From Rhodospirillales bacterium 20-60-12 (GTDB taxonomy: Bacteria; Pseudomonadota; Alphaproteobacteria; Acetobacterales; Acetobacteraceae), in assembly GCA_002255495.1 (NCBI GenBank), contig NCAP01000003.1:1-52658 (forward strand): a DNA stretch of 52,658 nt, written 5' to 3'. A program made the translations under genes and the position numbers. Within the stretch, counting starts at the first letter, position 1; each line of letters starts with the position of its first letter. The notes beneath the pieces were generated by a model. That model worked only from the letters and a program-made list of their open reading frames with translations, made no database searches and was not told where the DNA came from. Below, in pieces: positions 1,273 through 11,010 of this stretch.

Positions 1273-2501
<1,229 letters not shown>

Positions 2502-8999: not shown

Positions 9000-9111
9000 A
9001 CGCCTGCTCCTCGCCTGTTTGGTTTCGCGACCTTATGCGCCGCGCACATATCGTCGACTTGCGTGTCGGTTTCGGTAGTCATCTACGATTTCCTGGCGTT
9101 AAGGTGAAAAA

Positions 9112-10586: not shown

Positions 10587-10682
10587 TGGTAGGGGCGACA
10601 GGACTTGAACCTGCAACCGCGCACTAATCTGGTGCTCTCGTCGGATATAAGCCGACCGCTCTGCCAATTGAGCTACGCCCCC
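10587..10682 (-). tRNA. tRNA with UAU anticodon and long variable arm (tRNA-Ile-like)
   Basis: A 96-nt cloverleaf with encoded CCA. Acceptor GGGGGCG pairs with CGCCCCT (one G-T), T8 A9 are present, the D arm is GCTC/GAGC with loop AATTGGCA, the anticodon stem is GTCGG/CCGAC with loop CTTATAT, and the T arm is GCAGG/CCTGT with loop TTCAAGT; A73. The anticodon TAT should read the isoleucine codon AUA. Between anticodon and T stems lie 25 nt, with a GCAC/GTGC stem and 7-nt loop. Such a type II variable arm is expected only in Leu, Ser and Tyr tRNAs. AUA is usually read by a lysidine-modified CAU tRNA, so this gene is unusual. All core nucleotides are intact. Confidence 0.8.
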
Positions 10683-11010
10683 CAAAATCCTAAAGGGTGG
10701 TGAGCGTCGATATTCGGCTGGAGATGAGCAACAACATTTGTTGGTTATAGCGCAGAGCATGGGGGATGTCACGCCTATTCCCATGCCCGTATTCGTCATG
10801 GCTTTGAGGGCGGGGCGACGGATGTGCGCTGTGTGCGCCCAGCGCCGATGCCGCATGTGCCGCGCGGCGCCCCCACACGCAAGTCGAACTCGTCATCGAG
10901 TTCGCGATGTTTTGCTGTCTCCGGCAGATGCCCTTGTCTGGGCCTGTGTGTCTGTCCACATGCCAAAGCGCGGTGGTGAAACGCAGCTGCCATCGATCGA
11001 CAAGAGGAGA
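10683..11010. other. Gene-free stretch before the glucoamylase gene
   Basis: About 330 bp between the tRNA and the glucoamylase start. The glucoamylase frame stays open through it, but the encoded residues look non-coding (cysteine/arginine rich). It includes a perfect 8-bp hairpin at 10883-10902 (CGAACTCG, loop TCAT, CGAGTTCG) followed by a short T-run. Confidence 0.5.

Follow-up and report, generated by a model that had tools for sequence, protein, structure and literature searches.

Which amino acid would be accepted by a tRNA whose anticodon, UAU, suits the isoleucine codon AUA and whose long extra segment, with a stem of its own, recalls the tRNAs for leucine, serine and tyrosine? The question is posed by a gene of Rhodospirillales bacterium 20-60-12 that lies in a stretch of 52,658 nt, the whole of which was analysed and is here termed the window. 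An anticodon normally serves decoding and also, for many synthetases, identity. In most bacteria lysidine is the solution to the problem of isoleucylating tRNA-Ile2, and UAU tRNAs require an adapted isoleucyl-tRNA synthetase (IleRS). The window gene belongs to a family of tRNAs with two tandem anticodon arms, a design met again in hundreds of genes from phages and bacteria; its anatomy and conservation are plain, and the second arm may well be what IleRS recognizes.

A second anticodon arm in the window tRNA

The gene is 96 nt long (10587..10682, minus strand) and qualifies as a tRNA: acceptor stem, D arm, anticodon arm and T arm are all present. ARAGORN calls it tRNA-Ile(tat), in agreement with the UAU anticodon of the initial annotation, and the complete cloverleaf described there is borne out both by an Rfam tRNA match (58.0 bits, E 5e-10), in which the extra segment is inserted after the anticodon arm and ahead of the T arm, and by the minimum-free-energy fold (−35.4 kcal/mol), which is a full cloverleaf plus an extra hairpin. 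The CCA is indeed encoded, as can be read directly from the sequence, and is preceded by the discriminator A73 (10590..10590, minus strand), an identity element of tRNA-Ile that is shared by 210 of 215 relatives. ARAGORN, Rfam and the fold all place the first arm, GUCGG-CUUAUAU-CCGAC, at 10640..10656 (minus strand) with its UAU at 10649-10647, where U33 and A37 are both present. Throughout the family this first arm, arm 1, has what normal decoding calls for, namely U33, UAU and A37 or sometimes G37.

Twenty-five nt (RNA positions 44-68) separate the anticodon arm from the T arm. The stem that had been claimed for this region stands, being the extra hairpin of the fold and being conserved in phage homologues. 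This arm 2, GCAC-CAGAUUA-GUGC (10621..10635, minus strand), is kept in phages and bacteria with covariation in its stem, and positions 3-5 of its 7-nt loop, which correspond to anticodon positions 34-36, read GAU (10629-10627, minus strand; fold and conservation). Between arm 2 and the T stem lies CGGUU (10615..10619, minus strand), which the covariation of positions 15 and 48 identifies as a class I variable loop, 44-48, whose U48 pairs with A15. In the family at large this linker is 4-7 nt long, mostly 5 or 6, and covariation between its final residue and residue 15 (A15-U48 in 200 tRNAs, G15-C48 in 12) gives the Levitt pair known from ordinary tRNAs.

Class II tRNAs, those for leucine, serine and tyrosine, share with the window tRNA the more than 20 nt, with their own stem, between anticodon arm and T arm, and it was as a type II variable arm that the segment had been annotated. 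What is found instead is a hairpin with a 7-nt loop bearing GAU, followed by a complete class I loop of 5 nt at 44-48 with a Levitt partner at 48, and an arm of the Leu/Ser/Tyr type is thereby ruled out. In class II tRNAs a long arm replaces the 5-nt class I loop, whereas here that loop is kept after arm 2, and the anticodon is UAU rather than one for Leu, Ser or Tyr; neither ARAGORN nor Rfam offered an alternative fold. Nor is the gene of the lysidine type represented by tRNA-Ile2, since it encodes UAU and not CAU. The tRNA is best described as a putative class I tRNA-Ile that carries a tandem pair of arms in place of the single anticodon arm, and the doubt about a Leu, Ser or Tyr identity would give way to a specific isoleucine signal, the GAU of arm 2. 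The minor isoleucine identity element C4-G69 is the commonest 4-69 pair of the family (130 of 215 relatives). In 115 of the 215 two-armed tRNAs, that of the window included, the closing pair of the acceptor stem is G1.U72.

With its 7-nt arm 2 loop CAGAUUA and GAU at 34-36, the window tRNA fits the family of UAU tRNAs with two anticodon arms defined here. A covariance model of that family, R1, built from 60 sequences of which the window tRNA was one, scores it at 90.3 bits and ordinary tRNAs at no more than about 61. That difference, and the letter-for-letter identity of the arm in phage homologues, show that the extra arm is not a product of chance.

Relatives in phages and bacteria

BLAST against phages with the window tRNA retrieved two Synechococcus phages and one Latilactobacillus phage, and in both of those that were read the extra arm is identical to that of the window over GCACCAGATTAGTGCG. 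When viral contigs were scanned for the window arm 2 with the upstream part left free, 69 contigs were among the matches listed; of 72 sequences listed when the search relied on arm 2 and left arm 1 open, all have UAU except one truncated fragment. Further scans left the stem or the loop of arm 2 free, and then the whole V region. All family counts are from samples of the matches listed and not from a census, and are to be read as 'at least'. The same viral scans also yielded at least 40 distinct class I UAU tRNAs of ordinary length that are devoid of arm 2.

When the arm was unconstrained, the matches listed for bacterial genomes comprised 67 stretches. About 59 of these are members from bacteria, 7 are archaeal tRNAs taken to contain introns, and one is an odd contig labelled Saccharibacteria (L501:3900-4226), where tRNAs are apparently interrupted near 37/38 and which is possibly a misbinned archaeal contig. 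The bacterial carriers include Xanthomonas, Stenotrophomonas, Microbulbifer, Marinobacter and Rhodospirillales, as well as Acidobacteria, Planctomycetota, Nitrospirales, Chloroflexi and Obscuribacterales. Among the mobile carriers are Xanthomonas plasmids, Lactobacillus phages LpeD, Lpa804, ENFP1 and 3-521, Synechococcus phages S-SRM01 and S-SKS1, one Acinetobacter phage and 43 Vibrio phage records, arm 2 having been confirmed by reading in Vibrio phages Achelous and henriette 12B8. The E. coli genomes searched gave no match to a two-armed tRNA, and the exact arm 2 pattern gave none in genome contigs.

Several bacterial members (L492, L515, L521, L546, L548 and others) sit in tRNA arrays of up to 34 genes, some of them with TROVE/Ro60 or HNH genes nearby, and in two loci (L514 and L549) a gene for RtcB RNA ligase is about 80 nt from the two-armed tRNA. 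No conserved gene for a partner protein was found beside the two-armed tRNAs, the commonest neighbour cluster, an HNH endonuclease, being present at 7 of the 59 bacterial loci. On one viral contig (L073:5680-5718) just the 3′ part of a two-armed tRNA is present, comprising arm 2, the T arm and the 3′ side of the acceptor; it may be the attachment site that remained after integration at a two-armed tRNA gene. Phage tRNAs for Thr, Trp, Cys, Lys, Asn and other isotypes, for which class I structures are expected, also bear long variable arms (for instance L076:5514-5599, L278:11033-11117 and L209:4532-4622).

How constant is the second arm? From the scans with the arm free, 203 distinct long UAU tRNAs of phages and bacteria were listed, and a parser that seeks only hairpins with 7-nt loops, blind to their sequence, found GAU at loop positions 34-36 in 194 of the 203 and GAC in 4. 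As to the other five, three (L161, L526 and L498) hold AGAT in an imperfect or shifted stem, the Saccharibacteria contig is not a member, and L318, with neither GAU nor GAC, is a true exception. These counts ignore kinship; after clustering at 80% similarity, 41 of 46 have GAU and 2 have GAC. In a non-redundant alignment of 60 tRNAs, G34 and A35 of arm 2 are invariant, U36 is present in 58 and position 37 is near random. Position 32 is almost always a pyrimidine and 38 almost always a purine, as in anticodon loops, and compensatory double changes occur at all four pairs of the stem (95.8% paired). That covariation excludes pseudogene status for the family. The initial annotation had allowed for a decayed copy that is not conserved in relatives; arm 2 is strictly conserved across phyla, in phages and in bacteria, and together with the compensatory changes this disposes of decay at the level of the family.

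A probable split of decoding and identity between the arms

The two jobs of the anticodon may have been split, with the UAU of arm 1 serving the ribosome and the GAU of arm 2 serving IleRS, so that AUA would be read without lysidine. Judged from comparative sequence evidence we consider this probable, if not strongly so. Arm 1 would read AUA on the ribosome, and the isoleucyl-tRNA synthetase of the host would take the GAU of arm 2 as an isoleucine anticodon and charge the tRNA with isoleucine; perhaps arm 2 stacks under the D stem with arm 1 swung out. Phages and mobile tRNA sets could then read AUA in any bacterial host, needing neither the lysidine of TilS nor a special IleRS. A73 and the anticodon are determinants for IleRS, and isoleucylation of tRNA-Ile2 suffers when its C34 lacks modification (PMC9976931). 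The arm 2 loop seen most often in bacteria, CAGAUAA, matches that of the classic tRNA-Ile(GAU), CUGAUAA, except at residue 33. GAU is conserved in phages of cyanobacteria, of lactic acid bacteria and of Vibrio and in chromosomes of many phyla, and the same motif in such diverse hosts is more readily explained by a universal host enzyme than by a special partner.

Several features count against a split of decoding from identity. Bacterial IleRS strongly needs t6A37 (PMC9976931), whereas residue 37 of arm 2 varies and is U in about half of the family. The members with GAC (L411, L507, L521, L548 and Lactobacillus phage 3-521), all of which have G33, and the one exception with neither triplet are also awkward for it, as is the host of the window copy, with TilS and a likely tRNA-Ile(CAU) of its own. 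The strong preference of arm 2 for A33 is without explanation under the split.

Might arm 2 have some different role, structural for instance, and contain R-G-A-Y by accident, with the UAU tRNA charged in some other manner? Coupling of residues 33 and 36 (A..U or G..C) would then reflect the fold of the loop. C36 is present in 4 of the 10 loops that have G33 and absent from the 202 others (p 2.6e-6, without correction for relatedness), and phage 3-521 (GAC), set against its GAU relative ENFP1, has the same association of G33 with GAC. The pairing of G33 with GAC could represent a contact within the loop, tolerance by IleRS or valine identity. Such a role would make it a coincidence that the isoleucine anticodon falls precisely where a 7-nt anticodon loop would have it, and Y32 and R38 match anticodon loops as well; we consider it unlikely.

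An equally unlikely reading of the window copy itself is that it was acquired and is silent or in decay. When 299 genomes of the bacterium's family were searched with the covariance model, the two-armed tRNA was found in the window genome alone, the next best matches being ordinary 72-nt tRNAs at 58 bits, and a simple scan revealed no consensus sigma-70 promoter for it. The source assembly (2.97 Mb in 152 contigs) encodes TilS and one full-length IleRS, and has a CAU tRNA that, judged by eye, resembles tRNA-Ile2 rather than Met; the initial annotation had named tilS and a tRNA-Ile(CAU) as the things to look for, and the first is present and the second likely so. No tRNA-Ile(GAT) was seen in this assembly, which breaks inside the rRNA operon. 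Against silence or decay are the intact helices, A73, CCA and the 90.3-bit score. The copy would seem to be a lone acquisition beside an apparently working AUA system, and its use there is uncertain.

Slightly less likely still is that arm 2 is a decoy, or a site for a protein other than IleRS, such as an anticodon nuclease or toxin directed against tRNA-Ile(GAU), with the tRNA or its arm absorbing the attack. A setting of phages or arrays with TROVE/Ro60, HNH and RtcB genes is often tied to tRNA damage, and many copies are in phages and tRNA arrays, some near such genes. A decoy leaves unexplained why, among the matches listed, GAU arms sit only on UAU tRNAs, and the altered residue 33 would be noticeable to many anticodon nucleases.

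Very improbable is that arm 2 decodes AUC and AUU, making one tRNA suffice for all three isoleucine codons. GAU is the natural anticodon for AUU and AUC. Residue 33 of arm 2, among the members listed, is mostly A (178 of 202), and the U that the U-turn requires stands there in 6 of 202; with the U-turn residue almost always lacking, arm 2 should not decode. In Vibrio phage Achelous a separate class I tRNA-Ile(GAU) directly adjoins the two-armed tRNA, so arm 2 is not needed there for AUC or AUU. The similarly remote idea that arm 1 is an intron-like insert, removed to leave a tRNA-Ile(GAU), draws on the resemblance of arm 2 plus 44-48 to a normal continuation of the tRNA and was rejected, since U33 and A37, on which decoding relies, belong to arm 1, and its removal would leave a tRNA without U33.

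A separation of decoding from identity would, if true, be a natural example of a tRNA parting the two and a new solution to the AUA problem. It would account for AUA being read in unrelated hosts by phages and by mobile tRNA sets, and would provide a ready-made template for engineered tRNAs in which the decoding triplet is changed and the identity triplet kept. Bacterial tRNA-Ile2(CAU), like the two-armed tRNA, serves AUA as isoleucine, but is a class I tRNA whose C34 is converted by TilS, in contrast to an encoded U34 with a second arm. The tRNA-Ile(UAU) of Mycoplasma mobile is an ordinary cloverleaf, whereas the two-armed tRNA has the second arm. UAU tRNA-Ile genes, in which UAU is encoded as it is here, are known in M. 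mobile and a few others, e.g. Bifidobacterium, Neorickettsia and lactic acid bacteria (PMC4013482, PMC8450103, PMC9976931). Nematode nev-tRNA-Ile(UAU) also has UAU and an extra arm, and is set apart by its description as nematode-specific and leucine-charged in vitro (PMC4300185). In the open-access literature searched these UAU tRNAs of a few bacteria and the nematode nev-tRNAs are the nearest published, and no tRNA with two anticodon arms was described there; an earlier description elsewhere is possible.

The surroundings of the window gene

Genes for a TetR regulator and a DsbA-like protein lie on one side of the tRNA, and one for a glucodextranase on the other. A prophage origin of the locus was considered and has no support, the neighbours checked being ordinary chromosomal genes. 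The TetR and DsbA-like genes and the tRNA are together flanked by a 16-nt inverted repeat, 94% complementary, at window positions 9054-9069 and 10872-10887. Further away in the window an rRNA operon is followed by a gene for tRNA-Met(CAU), and just after these comes an IS3-type transposase gene (1273-2220), which contains an ALIL frameshift pseudoknot (2104-2220, minus strand).
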